DNA of 27,228 nucleotides from Gammaproteobacteria bacterium (GTDB taxonomy: Bacteria > Pseudomonadota > Gammaproteobacteria > Steroidobacterales > GCA-2729495): contig JAKLLP010000002.1 in assembly GCA_023150055.1 (NCBI GenBank), forward strand, positions 309 through 27,536, given 5' to 3'. Below, in pieces: positions 8,088-25,417 of the stretch. The position numbers and the translations under genes were made by a program. Under the pieces are notes generated by a model, which saw nothing but the letters and a program-made list of their open reading frames with translations, was not told the origin of the DNA and did no database searches. Numbering within the stretch: position 1 is the stretch's first letter; every line of letters begins with the position of its first letter.

Positions 8088-8196
8088 CAGCGATGCAGGC
8101 AGGGTGGCCACGGTGGGTCCCGCAGCTGCCCGAAGCAGGCCAACGGGGGCCGTGAAACCGGTGCACGATCGATCGGGGCGTCGGCGATGCGGACGG

Positions 8197-9165
8197 TCAG
8201 AACTCGTTGACGATGACACCCGCGAGCTTCGCGGTGGTCGCGCCGACCATCTCGACCAGTTCGTTCATCCGGTTCACCCGGGTCTTGTTCTTGCGGGCCA
8301 GCAGAAGGGCGGCGCCACACTTGGAGGCCACCACCGCCGCATCGCTGCCCTGACTGCAGGCCGGAGTGTCGACCACCACATGATCGAACTTGCGCAGCAG
8401 CTCGCCCATCAGCAGGCGAAACGCCGGACGCTCCAGCAATTCGAGCGGGTTGGGTGGCGTCACACCGACGGGCATGACATACAGGCTGGGAATATCGGGA
8501 GCCTGATAGATAACGTTGTCTTCCTGCCGCCCGCTCAGGATGCCCGACAGTCCGCTTCCGTTCGGAATGCCGAACAACTGGTGCAGCCGAGGGCCGCGCA
8601 GGTCGGCATCGACCACCAGAGTCCTGCCTCCCAGCTGCGCCAGCGCGATGCCCAGGTTCGCCACGAAGAAGGTCTTGCCGTCGCCCCGATCCGGACTAAG
8701 CACCGCCAGCGCCCGCTTGCCATCGGTGGCCCCGAACACCCTCATCATCAGCTGACTGCGAATAGCCCGGAAAGCTTCGGCCTGGCGGCTGAAAGGCTGT
8801 GCCGAGACCACCAGCTCCGGGTTCGTCCCCCGCCGTTCGTCCGGTGTGAACGGGTAATGGAACTGCTGGCTGAGCGCGAAGACGACATCGGAGTCGGTGG
8901 CCAGGCCCAACGCCACCGCGGCCTCACCGAAACGGACCCCGTGCTGCTGCTGGTAGGCGATGATCGTGTCGACCTGCTCGTCCGACAGGTTCTTGATCTG
9001 GCGGATGATGTCACCGATGCTGCGCTCCTGGTCGAAGCGGCTGTGAACATCATCGGAGGACTGCTGATGCACGAGGGTCGGCCCCCGATGCAGGGCGGAA
9101 GGACGAGCAGCGGCGTTCAAGTTGGGCTCCTGAGGGGTCTTCTGGATGGCCGGGCGAGCGGTCAC
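8197..9165 (-). CDS. epsG: Polysaccharide-associated tyrosine kinase-like ATPase EpsG
   Basis: A 322-residue soluble P-loop ATPase of the bacterial tyrosine kinase/MinD-like group. The variant Walker A is SPDRGDGKT at residues 157-165, Walker A' is LVVDADLR at 183-190, and Walker B is HVVVDTPA near 263. An N-terminal segment (residues 48-110, IGDIIRQIKNLSDEQVDTIIAYQQQHGVRFGEAAVALGL) looks like a GspE-type N-domain. The protein ends at ...GVIVNEF with no tyrosine-rich tail, so autophosphorylation on a C-terminal Tyr cluster is not expected, as usual in EpsG. It should act with EpsF to control chain length. The ATG overlaps the epsF stop by four bases. Confidence 0.9.
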   Translation of the reverse strand: MTARPAIQKTPQEPNLNAAARPSALHRGPTLVHQQSSDDVHSRFDQERSIGDIIRQIKNLSDEQVDTIIAYQQQHGVRFGEAAVALGLATDSDVVFALSQQFHYPFTPDERRGTNPELVVSAQPFSRQAEAFRAIRSQLMMRVFGATDGKRALAVLSPDRGDGKTFFVANLGIALAQLGGRTLVVDADLRGPRLHQLFGIPNGSGLSGILSGRQEDNVIYQAPDIPSLYVMPVGVTPPNPLELLERPAFRLLMGELLRKFDHVVVDTPACSQGSDAAVVASKCGAALLLARKNKTRVNRMNELVEMVGATTAKLAGVIVNEF

Positions 9166-10583
9166 TGCATGCTGGGTTTGGGGAGTCGGGCCAGCACATT
9201 GCCCGGCAACTGCAGCGAGCTTCCGCGAGCCCCGCCCCGCATCGGCCGCGGCAGGCTGCCGAGCACCGGCAGACCCAGCCCTTCCGACAGGTCGTCCAAG
9301 CCTCGCACCCGGCGGTCGGTCAGCTCCCGCAGCAGTGCAGAACCCACGCCCAGGAGGGCGCCGAGGAAGACACTCAGCAGCAGGTTCAGTACCACTCTCG
9401 GCGAAGATGCCTCAGAAGGCTCGGTGGCCGGGCTGAGCACCGAAATGTTCGTCTGCGTATTCTGGCTTTCCAGATTGGTCTGGCTCATGCGCTGCACCAC
9501 CTGGTCGTAGGTGCGCTGCGCGGTCTCCACCTCGCGCTGCAGCACGTTCACCTCGTCACGCTGCTGCTTGAGCGCCAGCACCTTGGCTCGCTGAGCTTCC
9601 AGGGAAGCGCGGATCTCCTGCTCACGCTGGCGTGCGATGGTGTCGGTGACACCGACGCTGCCGGACACCCGCTGGCTCTCGGTCGCCAGTCGCTGGCGCA
9701 ACTCGGCAATGTTGGCCTTGAGCTCCACGACCTGCGGGTGGGCTTCGCCCAGACGGGCACCGAGCTCCTGCAGGCGGGCCTCCTGCCTCGACAGGTCCGA
9801 GCGCAGTCCGGCGACCACGGGGTTGTTGATCACGTCCGCGAGTTGGTCGGCCGAGCTGCGCGCCTGGGCCGAGCGGCTGCGCGACTCGGCAGACACCGCC
9901 TGCAGGGCCACGAGCTGCGACGTGAGTTCGTTGAGCCGCTGGTTCTCGATGTCGAAGCGCTCGTCGGTGGCCAGAATCCCGTGCTTCTTCTGGTAGGCCG
10001 ACAGCCGCCCCTGCGCCTGCTCGAGGGCGTCGCGCAGCTCCTTGGAACGCGCGTCGAAGAACTCCGTGTACTGCTTGGCCGGCGAGATGCGCAGCCCGAT
10101 GCTCACGTCCATGTAGGCCCGCACGAACGCATTCGCCATGGCCGCCGCATTGCGGGGGTCGTCGCTGGTGTAGGCAATGTTGATCACATTGCTCTCACGC
10201 GACGGCCTCACGTCCAGCTCACGCTTGACTGCAGCTGCTAGCCAAGCCTCAAAGCTGCCCTTGCCCTGCGTCGCCTCCAGCCACTTCTGCCGCGCGGCGA
10301 AGTTCTCGGTCATCCGCAGGCCCTGCACCACGCGCAGCGCAACACGTTCGCTCTGCACGATGTCCACCTGCGTGGCCATGTAGGCCGGCGTGGCCATCGC
10401 CCCCAGCACCATGCCGATCACTGGATCCGGGGAGCGCACATCCAGCACCACCGCGGCCGAAGCCGTGTACTTCTTGGGCAGCATCAGACTGACGGCCAAG
10501 GTGGCCCCGACCGTCAGCACGAACACCAACACGGCCAGCAGCCAGCGCGCCTTCAGGATCGAGAGGAACTGGGAGAAGGTCAT
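9162..10583 (-). CDS. epsF: Chain-length determinant protein EpsF (Wzz family)
   Basis: A 473-residue inner membrane protein with the polysaccharide co-polymerase layout. A first transmembrane helix lies at residues 14-34 and is followed by the Wzz pattern LPKKYTASAAVVLDV. A long periplasmic coiled coil spans about residues 170-385, rich in Glu, Gln, Arg and Ala (for example around 210-250 and 320-365). A second helix lies at about 405-425, after NISVLSPATEPSEASSPRVV. Such proteins set polymer length together with the polymerase and the EpsG kinase. The gene is 54 nt after epsE and overlaps epsG by four bases. Length and order fit the EpsF family closely. Confidence 0.92.
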   Translation of the reverse strand: MTFSQFLSILKARWLLAVLVFVLTVGATLAVSLMLPKKYTASAAVVLDVRSPDPVIGMVLGAMATPAYMATQVDIVQSERVALRVVQGLRMTENFAARQKWLEATQGKGSFEAWLAAAVKRELDVRPSRESNVINIAYTSDDPRNAAAMANAFVRAYMDVSIGLRISPAKQYTEFFDARSKELRDALEQAQGRLSAYQKKHGILATDERFDIENQRLNELTSQLVALQAVSAESRSRSAQARSSADQLADVINNPVVAGLRSDLSRQEARLQELGARLGEAHPQVVELKANIAELRQRLATESQRVSGSVGVTDTIARQREQEIRASLEAQRAKVLALKQQRDEVNVLQREVETAQRTYDQVVQRMSQTNLESQNTQTNISVLSPATEPSEASSPRVVLNLLLSVFLGALLGVGSALLRELTDRRVRGLDDLSEGLGLPVLGSLPRPMRGGARGSSLQLPGNVLARLPKPSMQ

Positions 10584-10637
10584 GGCCAGGGCTTTCTGAA
10601 TCGGGAAGGAGAAGGGGCCGGGCGACTCGTGCAGGGG

Positions 10638-11486
10638 TCAGAACAGACTCTCGGCCACCCGAACGACGTCGCCGTCCTGCAGGGCGGACGTCATCGGGAG
10701 TTCGAGGGCCATCACCACGCCGGAGGCGTCACGGCGATGCACCTTGATGCCCTTTTCGGTACCACGCTGGGTGAGACCGCCGCCGGCAGCCAGGGCCTGC
10801 ATCAGGGTCATGCCGCGCTCGAGGCGCATGGCGCCGGGCCGCTGCACCTCGCCGTAGATGTAGACCAGCGGCTGGCGGTCCACGTAGAGGGTGTCGCCGT
10901 TGACGAGCACCGGATCCTGCAGGCCCGTGGAGCCCGAGAACATCGCGGCCACGTTCATGGCCACACGGTAAGGCTTGCCTTCGCGCAGGCCGGTCAGCGT
11001 CACCACATCGGCACCGCCCGGGGCCACGCCGCCGGCGATGGCCAGCAGCTCGCTCATGCGCATGCCGGGCGCTTCGAGCGGATAACGGCCGGGCCGCCCC
11101 ACCATGCCGAGCACGCTCACCTGGTTGCCGCGCACCTGCATCACCAGGATGCTCACCTGCGGCTGGCGCAGAAAGTTGCCGCGGAGCAGCCCCTCGGCAA
11201 TGGTGCGCTCCGCTTCCGTCACCGAGCGGCCGCCCAGCACCACCTGGCCCAGCAGCGGGTAGCTGATGGCACCCGATTCGTTGATGCGCGTCTCGAGCGT
11301 CAGGTCCGGATTCTGGTAGACGTTGATGCGCACCACGTCACCGGCACCGAGCACATAGTCCTTCTTGACATCCTGGGCCTGCGCGCGCCCCGGCCACATC
11401 GCGAGAACGCACAGCAGGCACAGGGCCATCAGCACGAGGCGAAGGGGATGAGAGGTCCGGACCATGTCGACGTTGCGGGAGTTCAT
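10638..11486 (-). CDS. epsE: Polysaccharide export outer-membrane protein EpsE
   Basis: A 282-residue protein counted from ATG 11486. The longer open frame above it is arginine-rich and overlaps epsD, so it is rejected. A signal peptide ends at about AQA-Q38 and has no lipobox. The Poly_export domain starts DYVLGAGDVVRINVYQNPDLTLETRINESGAISYPLLGQV (residues about 43-82; only the start is quoted as evidence). Two SLBB-type segments follow: VSVLGMVGRPGRYPLEAPG and VYIYGEVQRPGAMRLERG. It should form the periplasmic/outer-membrane conduit for the polymer, like Wza but without a lipid anchor. A second ATG at 11465 would give a shorter signal peptide. It sits between epsD and epsF in the standard order. 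Confidence 0.92.
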   Translation of the reverse strand: MNSRNVDMVRTSHPLRLVLMALCLLCVLAMWPGRAQAQDVKKDYVLGAGDVVRINVYQNPDLTLETRINESGAISYPLLGQVVLGGRSVTEAERTIAEGLLRGNFLRQPQVSILVMQVRGNQVSVLGMVGRPGRYPLEAPGMRMSELLAIAGGVAPGGADVVTLTGLREGKPYRVAMNVAAMFSGSTGLQDPVLVNGDTLYVDRQPLVYIYGEVQRPGAMRLERGMTLMQALAAGGGLTQRGTEKGIKVHRRDASGVVMALELPMTSALQDGDVVRVAESLF

Positions 11487-11574
11487 GCGTTGCAGTGACA
11501 GTTGGAAGCAAAGAATCGGGCACACGCTTTCGCGTGGCCCGAACCGTATCAGCCGAGGCGGCCCGCGACGCGCA

Positions 11575-12522
11575 TCACTGGCTGGCAGCCGGCGTCGGCG
11601 CGACGGTAGGCGCCTCCACACCGCTGGCGGCGCCCTCGGGTGCGTTCGCGAACTGTCCCTTGTACTCGATCTGGGCCGCCGCACGCAGCCGCTTGATCTC
11701 CTCGGACACCAGCTTGCGCTTGCGCTCGTTGAGCAGGAACTGCTCGATGGCCGGCCGGGCCTTCTCTTCGGTCACCGGCGCCGGCTTCGCGCCGGCCACG
11801 ATGATCACGTTCAGGCCGGTGGGCACCGCGATGACCAGGGACTGCCCCTCGTTCAGCGGCGCCAGCCTGTCCAGCAGCGGCATGGGCAGGCTCTCGGGCG
11901 CCTGGGTCACGTTGCGCACCGCGTACTTGATGTTGGCCGCACGCAGGGCGTTGCCCAGTTCGTCGGCGCTGCGCACGCCCTGCAGCTTGGCACCCAGCGC
12001 CTCGCGCTGATCGGCCGGCGCCTCGATCATGAACTCGCTGAGCGCGTAGATCCGACGCTGGGCAAACAGCGCCGGCTTGCTGGCGTAGTACTGGCTGATT
12101 TCCTCGGGCGTGGGCTTGCTGGCGCCCTCGGCGACGCGATCGGCATAGGCGCGCGCGATGATCTCGCGCCGGGCGGCTTCGATGGCAGACACGACGCGCG
12201 GATCCCGGTCCAGCTTCTGCTCCACGGCCTGCTGGATCGCCAGCTCCTGATCGATCAGGCCGTCGAGGATGCGCTTGCTCGCCGCCGGCACCATCTCGGG
12301 CTTGATGCCGCGCTGACCCTGCAGCACGTGGTTGATCTGGTGAACCGAGATCTCCTCCTTGTTCACCTTGGCGGCCACCTGCGTGGCCCCCCCTTCCTTG
12401 CCGCCACCGCCGCAGGCGGACAGCAGGACCGCCACGCCCAGCGCGACACCGCCCAGGGAGAAGCGCGCAGCATGACGGCGCAGGCGGGACTTCGAAGCAG
12501 ACTGAATCGGAGTTGACATCAT
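11575..12522 (-). CDS. epsD: Peptidyl-prolyl cis-trans isomerase EpsD (lipoprotein)
   Basis: A 315-residue exported lipoprotein. The signal sequence has a basic start (KSRLRRHAAR) and a lipobox LSAC with Cys37 as the lipid-modified residue, followed by a glycine-rich linker. A SurA/PpiC-like region follows: VAAKVNKEEISVHQINHVLQGQRGI, LDGLIDQELAIQQAVEQ, then a degenerate parvulin domain at about residues 150-265. EpsD proteins probably help fold export components in the periplasm. It is the first gene of the minus-strand eps operon, with 563 nt of non-coding DNA upstream. There is no good Shine-Dalgarno sequence before the paired ATGATG start. The alanine-, threonine- and proline-rich tail (last 25 residues) looks disordered. 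Confidence 0.9.
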   Translation of the reverse strand: MMSTPIQSASKSRLRRHAARFSLGGVALGVAVLLSACGGGGKEGGATQVAAKVNKEEISVHQINHVLQGQRGIKPEMVPAASKRILDGLIDQELAIQQAVEQKLDRDPRVVSAIEAARREIIARAYADRVAEGASKPTPEEISQYYASKPALFAQRRIYALSEFMIEAPADQREALGAKLQGVRSADELGNALRAANIKYAVRNVTQAPESLPMPLLDRLAPLNEGQSLVIAVPTGLNVIIVAGAKPAPVTEEKARPAIEQFLLNERKRKLVSEEIKRLRAAAQIEYKGQFANAPEGAASGVEAPTVAPTPAASQ

Positions 12523-13085: not shown

Positions 13086-14276
13086 TCACGACCATTGCCG
13101 TCTCGCCCGCTCGACGACGGACAGCAGTGCCTCCAACGCATCGGGCCACGTGATGCGTTCCTGCTCGAGACGCACCTTCGCTCCCCAGCGACCCGAACGC
13201 AGGCCGTCGAACACTTCGCGCTCATCCGCGGTGAGTTCTGCCAGCTCAGCGTCGGGGTACTGAGCTGGCTCCTGGACCGTGAGCGCGGCATACCGCTCGA
13301 GCGTGGCCACGTCCATCATCACGGACCGGGTCAAAGGCAAGACTTGGCGAGCGCGCGCGAGGATGGCGAGACCATGCGTGTCGATGTCGCCCCAATAGAC
13401 CGCAGGGCACGCCTGGAGCCATGGAATCGTACCCAGCGTCGCGACCGCAGCGCCCAGGCGCATGAAGGCCACCACACCCGTCATGTCGGGGAGCGCCACA
13501 CCTGTTTCCTGGTTTTCGACCATCAGCAGCACCTGCGGCGCCAGCTGGAGAGCCGCCAGTTCCTCCACCGGCGCCTCGATGTCCTTCAGGCCTCCGACCT
13601 GCGCGCGTAGGGCAGGACACAGGACTCGCATGCGCACCCGGTGGGGCGTGCGAGCCAGGCCGCAGGCCGCGTAGAAGTCCGTCTCGACCTCGCCACCACG
13701 CAGCAAGCCCAGCAAGTCCACGATGAGGCCCCGACGCTTTTCCAGCCACTTGGTGTCCACCCCCTCGAGGGGCAGCTGCCGCACGTAGAGACCCGACGCG
13801 GGGTGGTCGAGCATCCAGGCCAAGGCCGTCAGGAGCCGAGCGTAGTCCGCCTCGGCATAGTCGGCCAGCACGTCGAAGTAGCGTGCCAACCCTCGGCGCT
13901 CCTGGAACTGCGGCCAGCGTGACACCAGGTCGGCGTGCCGCTGGGCCGCCCGCCGCCAGCGCCGCTCCTGCCCGCACCAGGCGGCCACTTCGTCAGGACC
14001 GGGCAACACGACCGAGGAGGGCAGCGTCTGCGAGCCAAGGCGCAGGTACTTGCGCGGCTCCTGGCGCAGTTCGCCGGCACCCCGCCAGTTCGCCCAGGCG
14101 TCGACCCAATGGCGCACGGCCGAGATGTCCGCGGTGAAATCCGCTTCCGTCGGAACACCGAGGCTCACTTCCAAGGGCCAGTCACCACCGCCTTCGAGCC
14201 AGGCGCGATGCTGGTTGTTGTACCGGCGTATGAGCCAGTCCTTGACCTGCTCAGGCGTCAGCAGCTTCTTCGACAT
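13086..14276 (-). CDS. jetD: Wadjet nuclease subunit JetD (DUF3322 + DUF2220, Toprim)
   Basis: A 396-residue protein. The N-terminal half (residues about 5-190) is the DUF3322 arm domain, with WPLEVSLGVPTEADF, RKYLRLGSQTLPSSV and ARYFDVLADYAEADYARLL. The C-terminal half is DUF2220, a Toprim fold like topoisomerase VI-A/Spo11. The metal-binding acidic residues are present: Glu254 in LLMVENQET, and Asp297 and Asp299 in YWGDIDTHG. JetD is the subunit that cuts circular plasmid DNA after the JetABC motor has extruded a loop. The start overlaps the end of jetC by 26 bases. Length, motifs and position as last gene all fit an intact type I Wadjet system. Confidence 0.95.
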   Translation of the reverse strand: MSKKLLTPEQVKDWLIRRYNNQHRAWLEGGGDWPLEVSLGVPTEADFTADISAVRHWVDAWANWRGAGELRQEPRKYLRLGSQTLPSSVVLPGPDEVAAWCGQERRWRRAAQRHADLVSRWPQFQERRGLARYFDVLADYAEADYARLLTALAWMLDHPASGLYVRQLPLEGVDTKWLEKRRGLIVDLLGLLRGGEVETDFYAACGLARTPHRVRMRVLCPALRAQVGGLKDIEAPVEELAALQLAPQVLLMVENQETGVALPDMTGVVAFMRLGAAVATLGTIPWLQACPAVYWGDIDTHGLAILARARQVLPLTRSVMMDVATLERYAALTVQEPAQYPDAELAELTADEREVFDGLRSGRWGAKVRLEQERITWPDALEALLSVVERARRQWS

Positions 14277-17200
14277 CGTCGGTGCTCGTGGTCAACAGGA
14301 GGCGTTTGCCCTCGGTGTCGTAGTCGATGGGAATGGCGCAGGAGGTCTTGCGGTCCTTGATGTGGATGAAGCAGGCCCCGCCGATGAAGGGCTCAAGCGT
14401 CATCACGGACTTCAGCGGCGTGGCGACGACCATCTGGAATCCAAAGGTCTTGAAGATGTTCATGGCCATGGTCGTGAACTCGGCGTCGGCCTTGTCGAAG
14501 GCTTCGTCGAGGAAGACCGTCGAGAAGCGCGGCAGCGCCCGGTCCTGGCCACCGAGCTGATAGCGCAGCGCCGCCGCCAGGCAGGTCGCCGCCAGCTTCT
14601 GTCGCTGACCGCCGGACTTGCCTGCACCGCTGCGGTAGACCTCGACCTCCTTGTTGAATTCGTTGAGCTCGCGGGCCACGAACTCCACGTGCTGGCGGAC
14701 ATCCAGGACCAGCGCACGCCAGTTCTTGTCGGCCGTCTCCTGGCTGGCCAGCCGCTTGACCAGGCCGCTGATGACCTCGAAGCGCTGCTCGGCCTCCTTC
14801 GCGTTGGTCGTCAGCATGTTGCTGAGGGCGCTGCGCAGGGTTTGCTTGAAGGCGACGACGTCCTCCAGCAGCTTCTCCTGGGTCTCGATGACCAGGTGCG
14901 TGCCGGGCCCGAACGGTGCCGTTTCCAGGCTCTCGTTGACGAGGGACATGCGGTCCCGAATCGCCTTGCGCTCCTGGTCCAGCTGCGTTTGCAGCATGGT
15001 CAGGTTCTGGGCGCTCTGGTCGCGCAAGAGCTCCAGGAAGCGCTGCTCGTACTTCGGCAGCCCGTCCGTTTCCAGGCGCGCCAACTTGGCAAAGAAGTCC
15101 GGGGCACTGGCCATCCTGGGGTCCAGTCCACCCGAGTCGGCCGGCCACAGTCGCACGAAATCCGCCAGGCGGCGCTCGATGCTGTTCTCCAGGTCCTTGA
15201 TGCGACTGCTCACCTCACGCTCGTCGGCATTGATGCCACGAACCACCTGCGTGGTGGCGTTGTCGAGCGTCTCCCAGCTCATGTCCGGCAGGTAGCGGGC
15301 GTAGCGCTCGTCGAGGCCCTGCCGCTGGAAGGGCGTGAGCTCGACCATCAAGAACTCAATGCGCAGCGATTCGATGCGTCGCTGCAACTCCTGGAGCTTG
15401 CTTTGTTCTGCGGATACCTGCCCCAGGTAGTTGCTGTGGGCGCGCCGGGCCCGGTCGTGCGTGGCCTCCTGCGCCTTGATGTCATCGTCCAGCCGGGCCA
15501 GGTCCGGGCGTTCATCCTTCTCACGCTGGATGCGAGCCTTCAAGGCGTCGATGGTGCCGATGGCCGAGTTCACGTCGACCTCGTCCCACTCGGTGTTCGC
15601 CAACTGGGTGTAGGCCTTCAAGCGTTCACGCTCGGTGGACTCTTCGGCCTTGGCGGTCTCGAGCGCCTTGCGCAGCTCTTCAATCTGCTGAGACAGCCGG
15701 TGAGCTTCCTCCTTGAAGTGGGCAAGCTTGGCGGCGTTGTCGAAGCCCAGCACCCAGCGGCTCGGGTCGTCGACACGGTGGCGGTCGTTCTTCTCGTGAC
15801 GGGTGCTGTTGTGCTTGACCTGGCCTTCGCGGGTGATGGCGCGGGGGGCTGCACGGAAGGCATGGACCGTGTCCGCGCAGTCGTAGTCGAAGTGTGTCTT
15901 GAGTTCTTCCTTGACCCAATCGGCCTGAGGCGCGTTGGCGAAGTTGAGCTTGAGAATCAGGGAGTTCTGGCCCGGGCCGCGCGGCGCGGAGGTCTGGGAC
16001 ATCGTCCGGAAGTAGACGACCCGCTCACCGACGTTCGTCTCGTTCAAGTAGGCCGCGACCTGTGCGTAGTGGCGGTCCTCCACCAGCAGCGATTGCGCGA
16101 AGCCGTTGAGCACCCGCTCGATGGCACCGCGCCATGGGGCCTCGTCCTTGCGGACCTCGATGAGCTCGCCAGCGAACGGCAGGCGCTCTTCGGCGATGCC
16201 CAGCGCGTGGGCCATGCGCTCGCGCACCGCCAGCATTCGGGCCGGGATGCTCGAGCGCTGGCGTTCGAGGGACTTGACCTCGGTGACGACTTTCTGGAAC
16301 TTGTCCGCGGCCTCGTCGGACTGTTTGCGCAGCTCGTAGGTCCTGTCCGCCTGCTCCTCCCGCTTGGCATCGGCTTCGAGCAGGGCGGTACGGGCCGCGT
16401 CCTTGCGCTGGGTGAACCACACCGCGCTGTCGGGCGGCGCCCAGCCCAGGGTGTCGCACGCGGCGCGAACCGTCTCGCGCTTGGCAACCCGCTTGTGCCG
16501 GGTGGTCTCGGCCGCCTCCAGCTGGGCAGAAAGGTCCTCCAGCAGACTGCCGCCCATGCCGCTGCGCTGGTCCTGCAGCGAGCGCAGCTTCGCAAACTCG
16601 TTCTTCTCGACGCCGTCCAGGCGGGCTGCTTCCTGGGCCATGCCGGCGAGGTCGGTCTGTTGTGCGGCGACGGCTTCATCGAGCAGACGCTTGCGCGTCT
16701 GCTCCTTGTATTTGTCCACGCCGGCGGACAACTCGTCGAGTTCGCTCTTGGTTAGGCGCGCCTTGTCCAGCGCCTGCGCCTCCTCCTGGGCCGGCTTGAG
16801 CGTCTCGATTTGCAGGCGGGCTGAGACCACCGCACGGTGGGCCTCGTTCAGCTCGGCGAACTGGTCCACGAGCTTCTCGGCCAGCTTGAAGGTCTCCGGC
16901 GGCTCCAGCATGAAGTCGCGCATGAACTCGTTCAGGTCACCCAGGTTCTTGGCGGCCTGGGTCTTGTGCAGCAGGCGCAGGGCCCGTTCGCTCTCGATGC
17001 CGAGCAGCCGCCGGAAGCGCTCCTGGTAAGCGCTGAACTCATCCCGGACGAAGGCATCGGGCAGGTCGAACTTGAAGCGTCGGACGTCGAAGTCGTGCTC
17101 GGGGAAGAACTGCAGCTCCTGCAGGTCCAGTTCGCGTTCGAGCACCAGGTAGAGCCGCTTCACGTCGGACAGGCTGGTCGACTTGCCGCGCACCCAGAGC

Positions 17201-17649
17201 ACCTGGGCCAGCACCACGACGCGCCCGGTACCGTCACGGTAGGTCTCCGCCACGGCCGACCAGGTGGTGTCGGCGCGCAGGAACTGGGAGGCGTATTCGC
17301 CGGCGTCGGTGGTCTGCTGGGCCCAGGCACCGCGCACATAGGTCAGCAGGTTGCGGTCCTTCGAGCGCTTCTCGGCTTCTCGGGCTGCCACATTGAAGTC
17401 GACCCACTTCGGCGGGGTCATCACCGAAGCATGGCCATCCAGGACGGTCGACTTGCCGGAACCAGACGGACCGACGAACAGATAGCCCTGCTCGGCGATG
17501 TTCAGGCGCAGCAGCCCCTGGAAGGTGCCCCAGTTGAAGAGCTGCATCTGCCTGAGCTTCATCTGGTCGCGCTCGCCCGTGTCGACGGGCGGCTCGTCCA
17601 TCGAGGCATCCATCGGGAAAAGGCTCTGAGGGGTCATGAGCGTGTTCAC
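14251..17649 (-). CDS. jetC: Wadjet SMC-like motor ATPase JetC
   Basis: A 1132-residue SMC/MukB-like ATPase. Walker A is GPSGSGKS at residues 60-67. The ABC signature is KSGGQRQ near 1011-1017, and Walker B is VFLDEAFDKAD with Asp1048-Glu1049. Between the two head halves, heptad-rich coiled coils at about 240-480 and 640-980 enclose a hinge-like region near 490-640 (SIPARMLAVRERMAHALGI onward). JetC is the DNA loop-extruding motor of the Wadjet anti-plasmid complex. The start is GTG 17649, overlapping the jetB stop by four bases (GTGA), with a later ATG five codons in. Length is normal and both ATPase halves are intact, so it should be active. Confidence 0.95.
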   Translation of the reverse strand: MNTLMTPQSLFPMDASMDEPPVDTGERDQMKLRQMQLFNWGTFQGLLRLNIAEQGYLFVGPSGSGKSTVLDGHASVMTPPKWVDFNVAAREAEKRSKDRNLLTYVRGAWAQQTTDAGEYASQFLRADTTWSAVAETYRDGTGRVVVLAQVLWVRGKSTSLSDVKRLYLVLERELDLQELQFFPEHDFDVRRFKFDLPDAFVRDEFSAYQERFRRLLGIESERALRLLHKTQAAKNLGDLNEFMRDFMLEPPETFKLAEKLVDQFAELNEAHRAVVSARLQIETLKPAQEEAQALDKARLTKSELDELSAGVDKYKEQTRKRLLDEAVAAQQTDLAGMAQEAARLDGVEKNEFAKLRSLQDQRSGMGGSLLEDLSAQLEAAETTRHKRVAKRETVRAACDTLGWAPPDSAVWFTQRKDAARTALLEADAKREEQADRTYELRKQSDEAADKFQKVVTEVKSLERQRSSIPARMLAVRERMAHALGIAEERLPFAGELIEVRKDEAPWRGAIERVLNGFAQSLLVEDRHYAQVAAYLNETNVGERVVYFRTMSQTSAPRGPGQNSLILKLNFANAPQADWVKEELKTHFDYDCADTVHAFRAAPRAITREGQVKHNSTRHEKNDRHRVDDPSRWVLGFDNAAKLAHFKEEAHRLSQQIEELRKALETAKAEESTERERLKAYTQLANTEWDEVDVNSAIGTIDALKARIQREKDERPDLARLDDDIKAQEATHDRARRAHSNYLGQVSAEQSKLQELQRRIESLRIEFLMVELTPFQRQGLDERYARYLPDMSWETLDNATTQVVRGINADEREVSSRIKDLENSIERRLADFVRLWPADSGGLDPRMASAPDFFAKLARLETDGLPKYEQRFLELLRDQSAQNLTMLQTQLDQERKAIRDRMSLVNESLETAPFGPGTHLVIETQEKLLEDVVAFKQTLRSALSNMLTTNAKEAEQRFEVISGLVKRLASQETADKNWRALVLDVRQHVEFVARELNEFNKEVEVYRSGAGKSGGQRQKLAATCLAAALRYQLGGQDRALPRFSTVFLDEAFDKADAEFTTMAMNIFKTFGFQMVVATPLKSVMTLEPFIGGACFIHIKDRKTSCAIPIDYDTEGKRLLLTTSTDDVEEAADA

Positions 17650-18407
17650 TCGAGGGCCTCCTCGTCACGGTCGTCGGCCTCGGACGCGGCCGCTTGGACC
17701 GCCGGGTTGCTGGCCATGCCAGCTTGGTCAAGGGTGTCGCCTGAGCCTTGCGTCCCAGCCTGGGCGATGGCCGTGTACGACTGCGCCAGGGCCTGTATCT
17801 CCTCGGCCGGAAACAAGAGCTTGAGCGTCGGCGAAATCTCGAAGCGCTCATCGCCCCCACGCAGCTTGTGCAGCAGGCTCAGCTTCTTGGCCTTCTCGAG
17901 CGCGTTCTCCATCTGCCGTTCGAAGCGAGCGTGGTCGACGTTCTTGTCGCGCTCGAAGACCCGCAAGTGCTCGACCACCTCGGTCTTGGAGACCACCGCA
18001 CGCTCGCCCTGGGCGTCCGCTTGCGTCAGGCGTTGGCGCAGGAACAGGACCAGCGCCGACTCCAGGAAGGTGAGCGAGGCACGGCGCAGCAGGACGGGCG
18101 CGTCGATGTCATCGGCAACCACCTGGCGGGTGAAGGCGACCTTCTGCTCCCGGTCGACGACGAGGTCGAGGAACAGGTCGTGCAGCCGGGAGCGCAGGAT
18201 GGCCTCGTCGCGCAGGAGCACGAGCCACAGCTTGGACTGGCGATGGCCATCGACGGAGGGGCCGAGCAGCAGCTGGACGAGCGCCCGACGGGTCTCGAGC
18301 GGCAACTGACCGGTATCGCCGGCGAAGGTCACGCCTGCATCACTGGGCGGGGCAGGCTCCACCTGGTCGACGGGGTCCTCGTCCACGGTGTCAGTGGCTT
18401 GAATCAA
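17646..18407 (-). CDS. jetB: Wadjet subunit JetB (DUF4194, MukE-like)
   Basis: A 253-residue protein with the DUF4194 pattern: a winged-helix-rich core (residues about 45-205) with SKLWLVLLRDEAILRSRLHDLFLDLVVDREQKVAF, LTFLESALVLFLRQRL, and ENALEKAKKLSLLHKLRGGDERFEISPTLKLLF (given as landmarks). It corresponds to the KITE/MukE-type subunit that binds the kleisin JetA and the SMC heads. Acidic and alanine-rich tails on both ends (first 40 and last 45 residues) look disordered. Its start lies 17 bases inside jetA and its stop overlaps jetC, so the genes form a single coupled operon. Confidence 0.92.
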   Translation of the reverse strand: MIQATDTVDEDPVDQVEPAPPSDAGVTFAGDTGQLPLETRRALVQLLLGPSVDGHRQSKLWLVLLRDEAILRSRLHDLFLDLVVDREQKVAFTRQVVADDIDAPVLLRRASLTFLESALVLFLRQRLTQADAQGERAVVSKTEVVEHLRVFERDKNVDHARFERQMENALEKAKKLSLLHKLRGGDERFEISPTLKLLFPAEEIQALAQSYTAIAQAGTQGSGDTLDQAGMASNPAVQAAASEADDRDEEALE

Positions 18408-19854
18408 GGAAGCTCTCCCTCAGGAAATAGATGGCCGGGACGCGGGCACTGCGGTGCTGGCCGTCCTTGCCCTGCCAGCTGACGTGCTGCATGGCCTCGG
18501 TCACTTCGCCGTGCCTGGCGCCGAGCGCCACATAGCCCACCACCGAGCCGAAGCCCTGTTCGGCCGGGAAGCGCGCAAGCACGTCGGCGATGGAGGCCTG
18601 CGACGTGTCTCGGAGCACAGCCTGGATGTGCCCACGCAGCGTGCGGAAGTCAATTTCGGAGTGCCGCACCAGTTCTTCGACGTCGTCGATGCTCAGGTCG
18701 GACGGCGCCGCGTCGTCCATGCTGGCATCGGGCACCCGCAGGTTCGGGTCATACAGCCCCCACTGCGCGACCGAGCGGATGCGGCTGCTTGTCAGCGACA
18801 GGTCGAATCCCATGGGCTCGTTGGCGCGGACATGGTCCTTCGCGGCCAGGGCGGCCAGCTGGGCCTGTTTCAGCAGCGCATGCAGGCGGCGCTGCTCCTG
18901 GAACTCGCGACTTTGCACGAAGCTCTTGAGGCTGCGTGCGAACTGCTGCAGCACCTCGTGCACCTCACCACCTTCGGCCATCAGCGTCGCGGTCAACGAC
19001 TGCAGGAAGCGGCGCTCACGTGCATCCAGGCGACGCGCGAAGCCGCGGCTGGTGACGGCATCCAGGGCCTCGGTCAGCGCAAAGGACTGCTCGCCGTCGG
19101 TCAGCAGGCGCCAGAACGCCGTGAAGGTGCGTCCGGGGTCGCTCTCTGCAATCAGGTCCACGCCGGCGAACAGGTGCTCCAGCACGTCGCCGCGGCTGCC
19201 GTCGTTCTCCATCAGGCTCTGACGCAAGTCGCGATTGAGCCGGTCGAAGGCGTCGCGCACATTGCGGAAGTCAGCCGCCAGGTCCTGGGCGAGCTCGATG
19301 ACCTCTCGAGCGCGCTCAACGGCGCGGTCCTCCGGCAGGGTCTTCACGCCTCCGCGTTGAACCGTAGCGATTTCCTGGTCGATGCGCTCGCGCTCGGCCA
19401 TCAGCGCGGCAAGGCGCGTCTGGGGGTTGGCGTCCGTCTCCTCGGCGAGGCGTATCACCTGCTGCATCACGTTGGCCAGTCGGCTCTCGGTCGCCGCCGT
19501 GCGGGGGCGCTGAAGGCCGTTGACCAGGCGCAACGCAGTGGCCGCATCGGCGGTGAGCTCATAGACCTCCTCGGACGCACCCGCCGGAAACCGCCGGGTC
19601 AGCCAGCCTTGGGTCAGCCAGTCCGCGGTGTAGGCCTGTGCCGCCTGAGGAAGTACGTGCCCCTGTCCGCGCAGGGCGTCGATGTGCCGCGTGAGCCGCT
19701 CGAGCAGGACGGACCCAGGCAGCACCTTGTCCTCTTCCATGAAGAGGGCGTTCAGCATGGCCAGCACCACCGGGCCGAGGTCGGCGGCCAGCAGCTTCCA
19801 CACGCGGCCTTCACGCAGCGCTTGGTAGGCCTCCGAGGTGCGGAGCACCTTCAC
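18391..19854 (-). CDS. jetA: Wadjet kleisin subunit JetA (DUF3375, MukF-like)
   Basis: A 487-residue DUF3375 protein, the first gene of the operon. I place the start at GTG 19854, because a strong ribosome site AAGGGAG lies six bases upstream and the first residues then read VKVLRTSEAYQALREG. A longer frame to 19902 exists but adds only a proline/arginine-rich leader. Landmarks are VWKLLAADLGPVVLAMLNALFMEE, a winged-helix region near 50-110, a long helical part (residues about 130-300) and a C-terminal winged helix. It should be the kleisin that bridges the JetC heads with JetB. The gene is read divergently from the WYL regulator, with 171 bp between the starts. Confidence 0.93.
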   Translation of the reverse strand: MKVLRTSEAYQALREGRVWKLLAADLGPVVLAMLNALFMEEDKVLPGSVLLERLTRHIDALRGQGHVLPQAAQAYTADWLTQGWLTRRFPAGASEEVYELTADAATALRLVNGLQRPRTAATESRLANVMQQVIRLAEETDANPQTRLAALMAERERIDQEIATVQRGGVKTLPEDRAVERAREVIELAQDLAADFRNVRDAFDRLNRDLRQSLMENDGSRGDVLEHLFAGVDLIAESDPGRTFTAFWRLLTDGEQSFALTEALDAVTSRGFARRLDARERRFLQSLTATLMAEGGEVHEVLQQFARSLKSFVQSREFQEQRRLHALLKQAQLAALAAKDHVRANEPMGFDLSLTSSRIRSVAQWGLYDPNLRVPDASMDDAAPSDLSIDDVEELVRHSEIDFRTLRGHIQAVLRDTSQASIADVLARFPAEQGFGSVVGYVALGARHGEVTEAMQHVSWQGKDGQHRSARVPAIYFLRESFLDSSH

Positions 19855-19967
19855 GCCAGACTCCCTTGGTGGACGTGAACACGGCGCCGGTGTGGGCCGC
19901 ATGGCATTGGAATCGAGAGTTGCTCCAACATCGTCTCCCCGGCTTGGATTTGTCGGTTGGCGACCCC

Positions 19968-19996
19968 ATTATGGGCATAGTTTTTATATTCGTCTA
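19968..19996 (-). promoter_or_regulatory. Candidate sigma-70 promoter of jetABCD
   Basis: On the minus strand TAGACG (19996-19991) and CATAAT (19973-19968) are separated by exactly 17 bp. They match the -35 and -10 consensus at 4/6 and 5/6 positions. The jetA GTG lies about 110 nt downstream. The -35 hexamer is one arm of the palindrome at 19991-20007, so a protein bound there would block RNA polymerase. Confidence 0.5.
19985..19990 (+). promoter_or_regulatory. Possible -10 box of the WYL regulator gene
   Basis: TATATT matches the -10 consensus at 5/6 positions and stands 35 nt before the ATG at 20026. No good -35 is present at 16-18 bp spacing. If used, transcription would start inside the adjacent palindrome and give a very short leader, in line with the lack of a ribosome site before this ATG. 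Confidence 0.3.
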
Positions 19997-20007
19997 CTAC
20001 ATAGACG
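19991..20007. promoter_or_regulatory. Palindromic operator candidate between jetA and WYL gene
   Basis: CGTCTA-CTACA-TAGACG is a perfect inverted repeat with 6-bp arms and a 5-bp spacer. It sits in the only AT-rich part of the divergent gap, overlaps the candidate jetA -35 box and follows the TATATT box of the regulator gene. WYL regulators of the BrxR/CapW group bind inverted repeats near their own promoters and those of defence genes, so this is the best operator candidate. A 6-bp-arm palindrome alone would occur by chance several times in the window. Confidence 0.5.
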
Positions 20008-20025
20008 TGTGCAACAATCAAACCC

Positions 20026-20940
20026 ATGCGAACACCCCCCGCCGCACCACCCGCGACGCCGGTGCCCACCCCAGAGCCTCGAGCTGTGTCGCGCTGGGGG
20101 CAGGACCGTCGCCTGGCGTTCATCGACTTCCGCCTGCGGTGGGATGGCCGGCTGAACCGCTCGGACCTCATCGGCTTCTTTGGCATCTCGGTGCCGCAGG
20201 CGTCGCTGGACATCGCGCGGTACACCGAACTGGCCCCCGCCAACCTGACGTACGACCGCAGTGCACGGGTCTACGTCAGTGGCAGCCAGTTCGTACCACT
20301 GTTTCCGAGCACCAACTCTTCGCACTATCTCAGCGAACTGCTGGCCGCCGAAGCGGGGCTGCTCACGGCAGAGGCAACTTTCCTCGGCTGGCGGCCGCCG
20401 ATGGCGTTCGTGCCCAGCCCGGGTCGTGCCGTGCTTGCGGACACGCTGGTGCCGCTGCTGCGCGCCATCCGCGAGGGGCGTGGCGTTCGCGTGCAATACC
20501 AGTCCATGTCGCGCCCGGAGCCTTCAGAACGCAGACTGACCCCACATGCCTTGGCGCACGACGGATTTCGGTGGCATGTGCGCGCCTACTGCGACTCCCG
20601 AGCCGAGTTCCGGGACTTCGTCATCGCTCGGATGAACGATGTTCAGCTGGATGAGCCCTCTGGCCCCGGCTCGGTGGGCGATACCGCATGGAATACGCTG
20701 ACCGAACTCGTGCTAGTTCCCAATCCCAAGCTGTCGCCCTCGCACCGTCGCGCGCTGGAGGTCGACTACGGCATGGTGGACGGTGAGGCTCGGATGTCAT
20801 GCCGCGAGGCGCTGATGTTCTACGTGCTGCGGCATCTGGGGCTTCACGTCGACCTGTCAGAGCACCCCGAGAGTCAGCAGGTGGTGCTCAAGGACAAATC
20901 ACAGGTGGAGAAGGTCCTGGCCCAAACGCCCATTTCGTAG
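20026..20940 (+). CDS. WYL-domain transcriptional regulator (BrxR/CapW type)
   Basis: A 304-residue regulator with three parts. An N-terminal winged helix-turn-helix spans about residues 26-85 (RLAFIDFRLRWDGRLNRSDLIGFFGIS then SLDIARY). A WYL domain spans about 152-205, with RRLTPHALAHDGFRWHVRAYC and FRDFVIARM. A WCX-like C-terminal domain spans about 225-300. The RWHVRAYC form instead of a classic W-Y-L motif is what I expect in the BrxR/CapW group, which represses BREX, CBASS and other defence operons and may sense a nucleic acid or nucleotide signal. It is divergent from jetABCD and shares a palindromic operator region with it. The ATG at 20026 has no Shine-Dalgarno. The first 20 residues are proline-rich, and a GTG at 20086 (codon 21) is an alternative start. 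Regulation of jet is inference. Confidence 0.85.
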   Translation: MRTPPAAPPATPVPTPEPRAVSRWGQDRRLAFIDFRLRWDGRLNRSDLIGFFGISVPQASLDIARYTELAPANLTYDRSARVYVSGSQFVPLFPSTNSSHYLSELLAAEAGLLTAEATFLGWRPPMAFVPSPGRAVLADTLVPLLRAIREGRGVRVQYQSMSRPEPSERRLTPHALAHDGFRWHVRAYCDSRAEFRDFVIARMNDVQLDEPSGPGSVGDTAWNTLTELVLVPNPKLSPSHRRALEVDYGMVDGEARMSCREALMFYVLRHLGLHVDLSEHPESQQVVLKDKSQVEKVLAQTPIS

Positions 20941-21136: not shown

Positions 21137-22399
21137 ATGTTGAAGTTCTTGAAACTCACCCAGGTGGGGCTGGCACCCACGCTGCAGATCGACTGGGCCG
21201 AGCGCATCAACCTGATCGCGGGCGACAACGGGCTGGGCAAGAGCTTCTTGCTGGACTTGGCCTGGTGGGCCTTGACGCGCACCTGGGCCGGGCCGGTGGC
21301 GCTGCCTGCGCCGAGCAGCAAGAAGGCCACCATCGAATACCTGGTGAAGGGCAAGTCCAGGGCTGCGACCCCGGTGGTATCCACCTACCGGCGCGCGGAT
21401 GCCTCGTGGCCCCTGCCCGCCAGCCGCCCCACGATGCCGGGCATCGTGATCTACATCCGCATCGACGGTGGCTTCTCGGTGTGGGACCCGGCGCGCAACT
21501 ACTGGCGCACCGACCCCGACCGCCCGGCGGCCTACCACTTCGGTGCCGCTGACGTGTGGAACGGCCTGGACATGGACGGCCGTCGGGTGTGCGAAGGCCT
21601 GGAGCGCGACTGGATCAACTGGCAAGAGGGCCGCAAACCCCAGTTCGAGGCGCTGGAAGCGGTGCTGCAGGCCGTTTCGCCGCCCAGCGAGCGGCTGCGC
21701 GTCGGGCCGCCGCAGCGGCTGTACATCGGCGAGGGGCGCGACCGGCCCACGCTGCTGGTGGGCTCGCAGTCCATCCCTGTCGCGCTGGCGTCCGCCGGCG
21801 TGCGGCGCATGCTGGCACTGGCCTACTTCCTGGTGTGGGCCTGGCACGAGCACCGCACGGCGGCCAAGCTGCTGGGCAAGCAGCCGGAGAATCGCGTCGT
21901 CATCCTCTTTGACGAACCGGAAACCCATCTCCACCCACGCTGGCAGCGCACCGTGCTGCCCAGCTTGCTGGCGGCCATCGAAAAGCTGCAGGGCCGTGGC
22001 GGGCACGAGCCGCAGATGCTGGTGGCGACCCATTCGCCGCTGGTGACCGCGTCGCTGGAGCCGATGTTCGATGTCGAACGCGATGACCTGATTCACCTGT
22101 CACTGCAGGACGGCCATGTGGTGGCCGAGCAGGGCGGCTGGGCCACGCAGGGCGACGCCACGAGCTGGCTGGTGTCGGAAACCTTTGGCCTGGAGCAGGC
22201 GCGTTCGGTGCAGGCCGAACAAGCCATCGAGGCGGCTGAGACGCTGATGCGGGGCGAGCGCTCGCACCTGCCTGGCCTTGGCACGCGCAAGGCGGTGCAC
22301 GCCGCGCTGCAGCGGCTGCTGCCTGCCGGCGACCCGTTCTGGCCGCGCTGGCTGGTGACGACGAAGGCCATCAAGGGTGCGGGTGGAGGCGCCACATGA
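21137..22399 (+). CDS. AAA/ABC-type ATPase, Septu PtuA-like
   Basis: A 420-residue OLD/RecF-type P-loop ATPase. Walker A is GDNGLGKS at residues 29-36. A signature-like ASAGVRRM follows at 218-225, Walker B is VVILFDEPETHLHP at 254-267, and the switch histidine is in ATHSPLV at 297-303. The long insert between Walker A and the signature (residues 50-210) holds several strands and tryptophans. A ribosome site GGAGG lies nine bases before the ATG. The stop overlaps the next gene, an HNH nuclease, by four bases (ATGA). This ATPase-plus-HNH layout is that of Septu (PtuAB) defence, and of PtuAB effectors in some retrons, but no reverse transcriptase is nearby. Alternatives are other AAA_21-type two-gene systems. 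Intact in all ATPase motifs. Confidence 0.75.
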   Translation: MLKFLKLTQVGLAPTLQIDWAERINLIAGDNGLGKSFLLDLAWWALTRTWAGPVALPAPSSKKATIEYLVKGKSRAATPVVSTYRRADASWPLPASRPTMPGIVIYIRIDGGFSVWDPARNYWRTDPDRPAAYHFGAADVWNGLDMDGRRVCEGLERDWINWQEGRKPQFEALEAVLQAVSPPSERLRVGPPQRLYIGEGRDRPTLLVGSQSIPVALASAGVRRMLALAYFLVWAWHEHRTAAKLLGKQPENRVVILFDEPETHLHPRWQRTVLPSLLAAIEKLQGRGGHEPQMLVATHSPLVTASLEPMFDVERDDLIHLSLQDGHVVAEQGGWATQGDATSWLVSETFGLEQARSVQAEQAIEAAETLMRGERSHLPGLGTRKAVHAALQRLLPAGDPFWPRWLVTTKAIKGAGGGAT

Positions 22400-22986
22400 T
22401 TCGCGTGGCCAAAGTTCCGAAGCCCACCCAGTTTGAAAAGAAGGCTGGGCAACCGGGCAAGCGGTGGTTGAAGGACAACCCCACGTCGACCCAGCGTCCC
22501 CCTGCGTACTGGAACGACTTCACGGCAGACCTGAGCGCGGGCTTTGGCGGGCTCTGCGGCTATGCCGCCATGCTCGACCCCACCGGAGGCACGGTGGATC
22601 ACTACCTGAGCTACAAGAACCACCGGCATCTGGCCTACGACTGGGGCAACTACCGGTTTGCGTCAGGCATCTTGAATTCATCGAAGAAGACTGCCGACGA
22701 CACGGTGCTGGACCCGTTCGAGGTGCAACCCGGCTGGTTCGAGATCCTGCTGCCCTCGCTGCAGATGCGCGTCACCGACGCGGTGCCTGACGCCATGCGA
22801 GCCAAGGCGGAGTTCACCTTAAAGCGCCTGAAGTTGCGCGATGGCGAGCGCATCATCCGCTGGCGTCAGTCCTGGTACGACATGTACAAATGCGGAGTCC
22901 TGACGCTGGACGGACTGCGGGGCGTGGCGCCGCTGATCGCCCAGGCCGTCGAGAAGGTCATTGCTCGAGGCGGCGTGGCGCCTTAG
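22396..22986 (+). CDS. HNH nuclease, Septu PtuB-like (divergent)
   Basis: A 196-residue protein with an HNH/PtuB-like core. The sequence GGTVDHYLSYKNHRHLAYDWGNYRFASGILNSSKK (residues 64-98) carries Asp68-His69, Asn85 in YDWGNYR, and Asn94/Lys97. This matches the pattern of an acidic-His pair, a YxWxN strand and an asparagine-lysine helix in HNH proteins of the TIGR02646/PtuB group. The usual CxxC zinc pair just before the histidine is reduced to one cysteine (Cys54 in GLCGY), so metal binding may differ. The start overlaps the ATPase stop by four bases, so the two are co-translated and probably form a complex. The C-terminal 90 residues are helical with no motif I recognise. The function as the toxic nuclease of an anti-phage pair is inferred. 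Confidence 0.7.
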   Translation: MIRVAKVPKPTQFEKKAGQPGKRWLKDNPTSTQRPPAYWNDFTADLSAGFGGLCGYAAMLDPTGGTVDHYLSYKNHRHLAYDWGNYRFASGILNSSKKTADDTVLDPFEVQPGWFEILLPSLQMRVTDAVPDAMRAKAEFTLKRLKLRDGERIIRWRQSWYDMYKCGVLTLDGLRGVAPLIAQAVEKVIARGGVAP

Positions 22987-23101: not shown

Positions 23102-24229
23102 ATGAGCTGGCAACCGGACCGCCCCTTCAACGACCTGCCGCCCGTTCCGGCGGCCGAGGTGCTGGAGACGCGGGCGGTGCTGAAGGCCTGCATTCCGGCC
23201 CGGGCCGCGCTGGCGGCGCTGAACCAGGCGGCGGCGCTGATGCCCAACCCGGCGATGCTGGTCAACACGCTGCCGATGCTGGAGGCGCGGGACAGTTCGG
23301 AAATCGAGAACATCGTCACCACGGCCGACCGGCTGTTCCAGCACGCGGGCGGCGCGGAGCAGCAGGCCGACCCCGCCACCAAGGAAGCGCTGCGCTACCG
23401 CGGCGCGCTGTACTGGGGCGCGGCCTCGCTGCGCGAACGGCCGCTCAGCACCGCCACGGCGGTGGAGGTGTGCCGGCAAATCAAGGGCGTGGCGCTGGAC
23501 GTGCGCCGCACGCCGGGCACCCAGCTGGTCAACGACCGCAGTGGCGAGGTGGTCTACACCCCGCCCCAGGGCGAGGCGGTGCTGCGCGGCCTGCTGGCCG
23601 ACTGGGAGCGCTTCCTGCACGAGGCCACCGACGTGGACCCGCTGGTGCGCATGGCGGCGGCGCACTACCAGTTCGAGGCCATCCACCCCTTCGTCGACGG
23701 CAACGGCCGCACGGGCCGGGTGCTGAACCTGCTGTTCCTGCTGCAGGCGGGCCTGCTGGACCTGCCCATCCTGTACCTCAGCCGCGCCATCCTGCGCCGC
23801 AAGTCCGACTACTACCGGCTGCTGCGCGAGGTAACGCAGACCGGTGGGCAGACCGGCGGTCAGGCCGGTTGGGAGCCCTGGCTGCGGTTCATGCTGCAGG
23901 GCGTGGAAGAAACCGCCCAGTGGACGACCGCCAAGATTCTGGCCATCCGCGCCCTGGCCGACCACACGGCCCAGCATGTGCGCGAGCGAGCCCCCAAGGT
24001 CTACAGCCGCGAACTGGTCGACGTGGTGTTCGAGCAGCCGTATTGCCGAATCGCCAATCTCGTGGAGCGCGGCATCGCGCAGCGCCAGGCTGCGTCGCGC
24101 TACCTTCATGCGCTGGCCGAGCTGGGTGTGCTGACACCCACCGAGGTGGGCAAGGAGAAGCTGTTCGTCCATCCCGGTCTGCTGCGCCTGCTGGCCAGCG
24201 AGACGCATGAGGTGGTGCGCTACACCTAG
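23102..24229 (+). CDS. Fic family AMP-transferase (class II, with winged-helix tail)
   Basis: A 375-residue Fic protein. The catalytic motif HPFVDGNGRTGR (His195 to Arg206) is complete, so AMP or a similar nucleotide group should be transferred to a target hydroxyl. The N-terminal domain carries the inhibitory-helix motif SxxxEN as SSEIEN at residues 65-70, which blocks ATP binding in class II Fic proteins and suggests self-inhibition without a separate antitoxin. A winged-helix-like C-terminal domain follows (about 300-370, YCRIANLVERGIAQRQAASRYL). Between them lies a tandem Q-T-G-G repeat. AAAGG stands five bases before the ATG. Fic genes are often embedded in type I restriction loci, and the scar immediately downstream fits that. 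The target is unknown. Confidence 0.9.
   Translation: MSWQPDRPFNDLPPVPAAEVLETRAVLKACIPARAALAALNQAAALMPNPAMLVNTLPMLEARDSSEIENIVTTADRLFQHAGGAEQQADPATKEALRYRGALYWGAASLRERPLSTATAVEVCRQIKGVALDVRRTPGTQLVNDRSGEVVYTPPQGEAVLRGLLADWERFLHEATDVDPLVRMAAAHYQFEAIHPFVDGNGRTGRVLNLLFLLQAGLLDLPILYLSRAILRRKSDYYRLLREVTQTGGQTGGQAGWEPWLRFMLQGVEETAQWTTAKILAIRALADHTAQHVRERAPKVYSRELVDVVFEQPYCRIANLVERGIAQRQAASRYLHALAELGVLTPTEVGKEKLFVHPGLLRLLASETHEVVRYT
23837..23872 (+). repeat. Three 12-nt tandem units inside fic
   Basis: Three in-frame units, each close to CAGACCGGTGGG, encode QTGG-QTGG-QAGW (residues 246-257). They sit in the linker between the Fic core and the tail domain, where related proteins usually have one short turn. 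The units would allow length change by slippage without a frameshift. Confidence 0.6.

Positions 24230-25327: not shown

Positions 25328-25417
<90 letters not shown>

Follow-up and report, generated by a model that had tools for sequence, protein, structure and literature searches.

Type I Wadjet systems cleave circular plasmids. The locus described here carries a jetABCD operon back to back with a gene for a WYL-domain protein, an arrangement that raises the question of whether this protein controls the operon and, if so, through which DNA sequence. An earlier note on this DNA proposed an answer: a 17-bp palindrome between the two genes, serving as a shared operator over the -35 element of jetA. 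That proposal is followed up here in the window (the whole stretch of 27,228 nucleotides that was analysed), in relatives of the locus and in control jetA loci.

Locus organization

The operon that the earlier note had called Wadjet is of type I. JetA1, JetB1, JetC1 and JetD1 are the best PADLOC matches of four adjoining same-strand genes that form one operon (Table 1). Wadjet I, the capW-like regulator gene, Septu and SoFic together make up one defence island. To the left of this island (7122-12522, minus strand) is an exopolysaccharide/exosortase cluster with genes for exosortase EpsH, a Wzz/GNVR chain-length protein, a ParA-like protein, polysaccharide export and a PPIase.

Table 1. Genes and predicted regulatory elements of the Wadjet/WYL region (window coordinates)
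Feature	Position	Strand	Basis or remark
jetD	13086-14276	-	JetD1 (E-value: 9e-128); PF09983
jetC (MukB-like SMC ATPase)	14251-17649	-	JetC1 (E-value: 0); PF13555, PF13558
jetB	17646-18407	-	JetB1 (E-value: 9e-90)
jetA (DUF3375)	18391-19854	-	PF11855 (E-value: 1e-148); JetA1 (E-value: 4e-193); GTG start at 19854, Shine-Dalgarno GGGAG at 19861-19865
Predicted jetA -10, CATAAT	19968-19973	-	17-bp spacer from -35; 4-bp overlap with dyad 1
Predicted operator dyad 1, TATGGGCATA-gtttt-TATATTCGTC	19970-19994 (centre 19982)		Score 15.7, best of the window
Predicted operator dyad 2, TATTCGTCTA-ctaca-TAGACGTGTG	19987-20011 (centre 19999)		Score 15.2, second of the window
Predicted jetA -35, TAGACG	19991-19996	-	In the half-site region common to both dyads
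Core palindrome, CGTCTA-CTACA-TAGACG (CGTCTA-N5-TAGACG)	19991-20007		Sequence; lies within dyad 2
Predicted capW extended -10, TG-C-AACAAT	20010-20018	+	7 nt before the ATG
capW-like gene (P0001; wHTH-WYL-WCX, 304 aa)	20026-20940	+	PF13280 (E-value: 3e-16); CapW/BrxR structure homologues
Septu ptuA	21137-22399	+	Directly downstream of the WYL gene
Septu ptuB	22396-22986	+	Follows ptuA
SoFic (Fic-domain) defence gene	23102-24229	+	PADLOC (E-value: 1e-115)

The nearest named relative of this Sphaerotilus-like genome is Sphaerotilus hippei, whose WYL protein is 88% identical to P0001. The locus is patchy in the genus, since of 12 other genus genomes searched, one (G003) matched the WYL protein over nearly its full length. 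A single scan of species genomes gave 170 relatives, 80 of which were kept for analysis. A divergent jetA lies upstream in 22 of these 80, in one case (L038) with about 1.3 kb between the genes. These 22 relatives and the window constitute the 23 Wadjet-I loci referred to below; L003, which repeats the S. hippei locus (L032) in the gap, is not counted.

Because ptuA and ptuB, which the earlier note does not mention, lie behind the WYL gene on its own strand, the regulator might belong to the Septu genes and stand beside Wadjet by chance. This is extremely unlikely. The block homologous to S. hippei stops at 20908, just before the WYL stop codon, and restarts at 25328, so that Septu and SoFic occupy an interval of their own. 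The S. hippei locus has no PtuA match above 45 bits, jetA is the upstream, divergent neighbour in the 22 relatives mentioned above, and none of the six best operator sites of the window falls in the 196-bp gap before ptuA.

The WYL protein

Among solved structures, P0001 is most similar to CapW of P. aeruginosa (7tb5, E-value: 5e-82) and of S. maltophilia (7tb6, E-value: 1e-78), followed by a further CapW entry and then BrxR (7t8k, E-value: 5e-43). The homology is near full-length: residues 8-297 of P0001 align with 7tb5 and residues 22-296 with 7tb6. The DNA-contact residues of S. maltophilia CapW (R32, S42, Q45 and S47) correspond to R45, S55, Q58 and S60 of P0001, which are retained in 84, 84, 80 and 84 of 84 clade members, respectively. 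H184 corresponds to the histidine that replaces the WYL tyrosine in CapW and is retained in all 84. The ligand-pocket residues Y145, R183, F185 and R189 correspond to Y158, R196, F198 and R202 (retained in 84, 42, 84 and 83 of 84); the R183 position, kept in 42 of 84, is therefore variable in the clade. The recognition helix shows very little variation (S55, P57, Q58, A59 and S60 in 84, 83, 80, 82 and 84 of 84), which fits a single shared operator code. With its PF13280 domain, its homology to 7tb5, 7tb6 and 7t8k and its conserved contact residues, the protein bears out the proposal of a divergent WYL regulator of the CapW/BrxR type, and it is predicted to be a repressor of this family. CapW/BrxR proteins further have as their operator an inverted repeat that overlies the core promoter elements of the adjoining defence operon; the sequence shows this trait as well, as described below.

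Activators are known among WYL proteins (PMC10693628, PMC11804915, PMC12340889), and P0001 could activate jet transcription as PafBC, SiwR and DriD do in their systems. Such a role is very unlikely: the protein is closest to CapW, which was reported as a repressor on the basis of tests, and the predicted sites cover the jetA -35 element and reach the -10 element rather than lying upstream of the -35.

The jetA-WYL gap and its palindrome

The gap between jetA and the WYL gene is 171 bp (19855-20025), with the WYL ATG at 20026. This length holds if jetA starts at the GTG preceded by GGGAG (Table 1). That start agrees by eye with the starts in relatives; the longest open reading frame begins at an ATG at 19902. 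The earlier note gave the right coordinates for the gap, the palindrome and the minus-strand TAGACG-N17-CATAAT promoter. Its description of the gap as the only AT-rich part of the area is almost accurate: no 59-bp stretch of the window is richer in AT than 19968-20026 (35.6% GC), but the gap as a whole is exceeded in AT content by 2% of the window's 171-bp segments.

Taken alone, the palindrome is weak evidence, not beyond chance. When the gap was shuffled 2000 times with dinucleotides preserved, 642 shuffles contained an inverted repeat with 6-bp arms and a spacer of 0-10, and 86 contained one whose spacer is exactly 5; in the window, N5 repeats with 6-bp arms of any sequence number 16. The exact pattern is present at one place in the 4.6-Mb genome, which is no enrichment by itself because a reversed control pattern is equally present at one place. 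Promoter-like sites in 5.2 kb number one, versus 0.5 +/- 0.6 expected. The features observed here owe their weight to comparison with relatives and not to the window alone. A count of inverted repeats by spacer length (0-12), made before the motif search described below, did not single out N5; odd spacers from 1 to 11 rose together.

Identification of the operator motif

A 25-bp symmetric motif, TAtnCGTATA-aTaAt-TATACGnaTA (10-N5-10; 20 bits), was learned by EM from 52 upstreams, a training set that left out the window, S. hippei and L033. The 99% shuffle level is passed by 45 of the 52 training upstreams and failed by seven. Sites are weak in L004 (9.4) and L071 (8.4), and a scan with this motif gave no site above 5 in L064, L068, L072, L079, L081 and L086. 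The WYL starts of the window, L032 and L038 were set to a hand-picked ATG; the automatic choice for the window and L032 is an inner GTG.

The dyad scores in Table 1 come from a held-out model, trained on 40 upstreams in which no type I jetA was detected (detection rests on tblastn; L040 and L061 have little upstream sequence, and L050 has jetA-, jetC- and jetD-like genes downstream). Its training log-likelihood is 327, versus 39-45 for five shuffled sets that were searched with fewer starts and iterations than the real set. This model marks all 23 Wadjet-I gaps, including that of the window, with a lowest best score of 13.2. Among 2000 shuffles of the window gap the maximum score is 12.7 and the mean is -4.8. 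In the 27-kb window, the sites that follow the two dyads score 4.5 (in a register overlapping dyad 1) and then -1.2. The left half of dyad 1 (TATGGGCATA) is poor and the outer right half of dyad 2 is odd. The conserved operator is thus predicted to be a 25-bp dyad, of which the gap carries two overlapping copies 17 bp apart. Conservation of the palindrome in relatives, on which the earlier proposal depended, is limited in its exact form to the nearest of them: the 17 bp are kept in S. hippei (L032/L003) only, L033 has one change, and the other relatives have different but related repeats. Taken literally, this loss would refute the earlier proposal by its own standard. The family motif, by contrast, is present in 23 of 23 loci.

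The strict form of dyad 2, with at most one mismatch, occurs at this place alone in the 4.6-Mb genome, once per strand; this count shows no enrichment, as the reversed control pattern has three matches. Outside WYL upstreams, eight sites scoring at least 12 were found in 1.396 Mb. Four of the eight would, we think, be explained by misplaced WYL starts in rows such as L081 and L086, two (L089) are at -279/-262 in the same intergenic region, and two in the 1.396 Mb are unexplained. None of 11 relatives with less than 44% identity (L007-L017, excluded from training) reaches the 99% shuffle level, and the operator code is therefore valid for the near clade only.

Control jetA loci

As a control, 36 jetA loci were chosen regardless of WYL genes (best matches from 369 and 399 genomes) and scanned with the 52-upstream motif, whose training includes Wadjet-I loci. 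Of the 36, 34 lack a WYL match, and their sites score 4.4 at most, although the sequence before jetA in L118, L137, L138 and L148 is 453, 119, 46 and 673 bp long; this is hardly enough to show that the operator is missing from L137 and L138, and not fully enough for L118 and L148. In the other two loci a WYL gene is divergent from jetA. The near-clade locus L144 has an operator scoring 20.6, while L145, whose WYL gene is 38% identical to the nearest query (L043), has no operator (-3.6). The pairing of Wadjet with a WYL gene is therefore not always made through this code, and L145 is perhaps another, distinct case of a WYL gene paired with Wadjet I. The operator accompanies the regulator rather than the jet operon, and the regulator is an accessory that few of the type I Wadjet loci sampled here carry.

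Geometry of the operator array

Steps between the centres of neighbouring dyads were counted in 54 non-redundant upstreams, 14 of them from Wadjet-I loci, which are mutually related. Steps of 15 bp (30 times) and 17 bp (39 times) predominate among a total of 77, the remainder being steps of 32 bp (five) and others (three). Three dyads are present in 26 of the 54 upstreams, two in 21, one in three and five in one; no dyad was found in three of the 54. In a 15-bp step a whole 10-bp half-site is used twice, and in a 17-bp step the overlap is 8 bp. The window has a single 17-bp step. Such a stepped array, unlike a lone palindrome, suggests dimers bound side by side, and their binding may be cooperative.

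Two other layouts were observed. In much of the E1-E2/JAB group (L097, L067, L095 and kin) the array is at approximately -47/-32/-15, nearly touching the WYL start, which indicates another promoter layout. In L089 (Pseudomonas mandelii) the region before the WYL gene carries two distinct operator arrays, at -279/-262 and -46/-31 from the WYL start.

Promoters

The top-scoring promoter directed towards jetA has a 17-bp spacer and a -35 element within the array in 21 of the 23 Wadjet-I loci (the exceptions are L034 and L075). This count covers 130 bp before the WYL ATG and spacers of 16-18; a spacer of 17 was favoured by half a point, and L039 becomes a tie if this bonus is removed. On the regulator side, a -10-like hexamer is positioned 6-7 nt before the ATG in 22 of the 23 loci, versus 243 of 12512 control ATGs; the same is found in 13 of 40 other non-redundant upstreams. 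In 19 of 23 Wadjet-I loci this hexamer also has the upstream TG of an extended -10 element. In the window, the distance from TGC-AACAAT to the ATG (7 nt) would place the capW transcript start approximately at the ATG. The message is therefore probably leaderless, as predicted from spacing.

The predicted dyads cover the jetA -35 and part of the -10, as well as the capW -35/extended -10 region. Dyad 1 overlaps the spacer of the jetA promoter, 4 bp of its -10 element and part of its -35 element. The shared operator over the jetA -35 is thus retained from the earlier proposal as to the overlap, which involves both promoters, but it is revised in form: it consists of 25-bp dyads rather than the 17-bp palindrome, there are two of them, and the first reaches the jetA -10.

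As the half-sites overlap promoter hexamers and the palindrome by itself is not beyond chance, the conserved block could merely be two back-to-back core promoters, with the look of a dyad arising as a by-product of facing -35 and -10 hexamers. This explanation is unlikely. The held-out motif was learned outside the Wadjet-I set and includes CG positions for which a core promoter has no use, and the 52-upstream motif gives no score above 4.4 in the 34 control jetA loci without a WYL match. The dyad has the same geometry as the BrxR site, and arrays of three or five dyads exceed what two promoters need.

Proposed model and comparison with known systems

The proposed model, which we consider highly probable, is that the gap acts as a back-to-back, ligand-released CapW repressor switch over the jetABCD promoter and the leaderless capW promoter. 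Two CapW-type dimers would sit on the overlapping 25-bp dyads, covering 19970-20011, and exclude polymerase from both promoters. Because the dyads overlap the hexamers of both, Wadjet would be silenced and the repressor's own synthesis limited. When the WYL domain binds its ligand (ssDNA in tested family members), the repressor would leave the DNA and both promoters would fire. Wadjet would probably be held off in this way until the cell meets ssDNA or DNA damage.

CapW represses CBASS (Blankenchip 2022, PMC9122588). The system described there resembles this one in protein family, wHTH-WYL-WCX architecture, contact residues and a palindrome over core promoter elements; it differs in that the operon is CBASS and a single bound palindrome of 19-24 bp per promoter lies over the -10 (PMC9122588). 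The motif derived here also picks out sites in a promoter adjoining the gene for the same E. coli CapW protein. In E. coli FDAARGOS_1262, which encodes CapW WP_001534693.1, three sites were scored in the capW promoter of the strain's own locus; two of them (13.0 and 10.3) are the best of the 8-kb locus, and the third scores 5.5. Because related CBASS loci are in the training set, this match is support and not an independent test.

BrxR represses BREX (Picton 2022, PMC9122601), and its site is 25 bp long, with 10-bp halves and a 5-bp gap, over the -35 (Luyten 2022, PMC9122589). Taken together, the two papers describe inverted repeats of 25-27 bp with 10-11 bp halves and a 5-bp spacer, a site over the -35 in Acinetobacter, a second R-BOX in E. 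fergusonii and inverted repeats upstream of 193 of 347 BrxR homologues (PMC9122589, PMC9122601). Luyten et al. also suggest that DNA-bound BrxR dimers associate at high concentration (PMC9122589). In contrast to these BREX loci, the two dyads here overlap, have a fixed 17-bp step and serve two divergent promoters. Picton 2022 mentions Wadjet a single time, as co-localised with BrxR homologues (PMC9122601).

According to a 2026 paper, CapW/BrxR proteins repress until ssDNA is bound (PMC13373217). CapW-type regulators beside Bub operons are described there as well, and so serve non-CBASS operons, as is proposed here; the E1-E2/JAB neighbours of the L097 type may be of the Bub kind. The main text of that paper, unlike the present analysis, has no occurrence of the word Wadjet (PMC13373217). 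No study of Wadjet regulation was found in the literature searched, from which most subscription papers lay outside, so that absence is not proven. The two dyads and their coordinates give an exact predicted operator for Wadjet, and with it a direct way to ask whether this anti-plasmid system is ssDNA-inducible.

The same clade beside other defence operons

The earlier note took the WYL regulator to be dedicated to Wadjet. This does not hold, as members of the same clade, with the operator, also adjoin defence operons of at least three other types. They are divergent from Wadjet III in L054 (JetA3, JetC3 and a weak JetB3 match), from CBASS in L106 (cyclase, HORMA and TRIP13) and from an E1-E2/JAB operon in L097, with operator sites in each case. 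With the clade code TAtnCGTATA-N5-TATACGnaTA, in 15/17-bp steps, defence operons under the control of a CapW-type repressor can be predicted.

A tree of 84 proteins requires four changes of the Wadjet-I label, at least three of them forced by well supported branches, and likewise four and three of the Wadjet-III label. PADLOC scans underlie these labels for nine proteins of L097, L054 and L106 only. The other labels are from blastp clusters or, for L059, L080, L089, L095, L096 and L108-L110, from gene order and size; 19 rows carry no label, and the label patatin is a reading of the sequences. It is possible, though doubtful, that a portable CapW cassette (the gene with its fixed-step array) has repeatedly captured Wadjet and that ssDNA, for example during conjugation, switches the system on. 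If so, the signal that the regulator senses would correspond to what the nuclease attacks.

A different arrangement was observed in L050. JetA-, JetC- and JetD-like genes (29-30% identical) lie downstream of the WYL gene in its own orientation (9890 onward, plus strand) and a gene of the E1-E2 group is divergent from it, which places one regulator between two defence operons.
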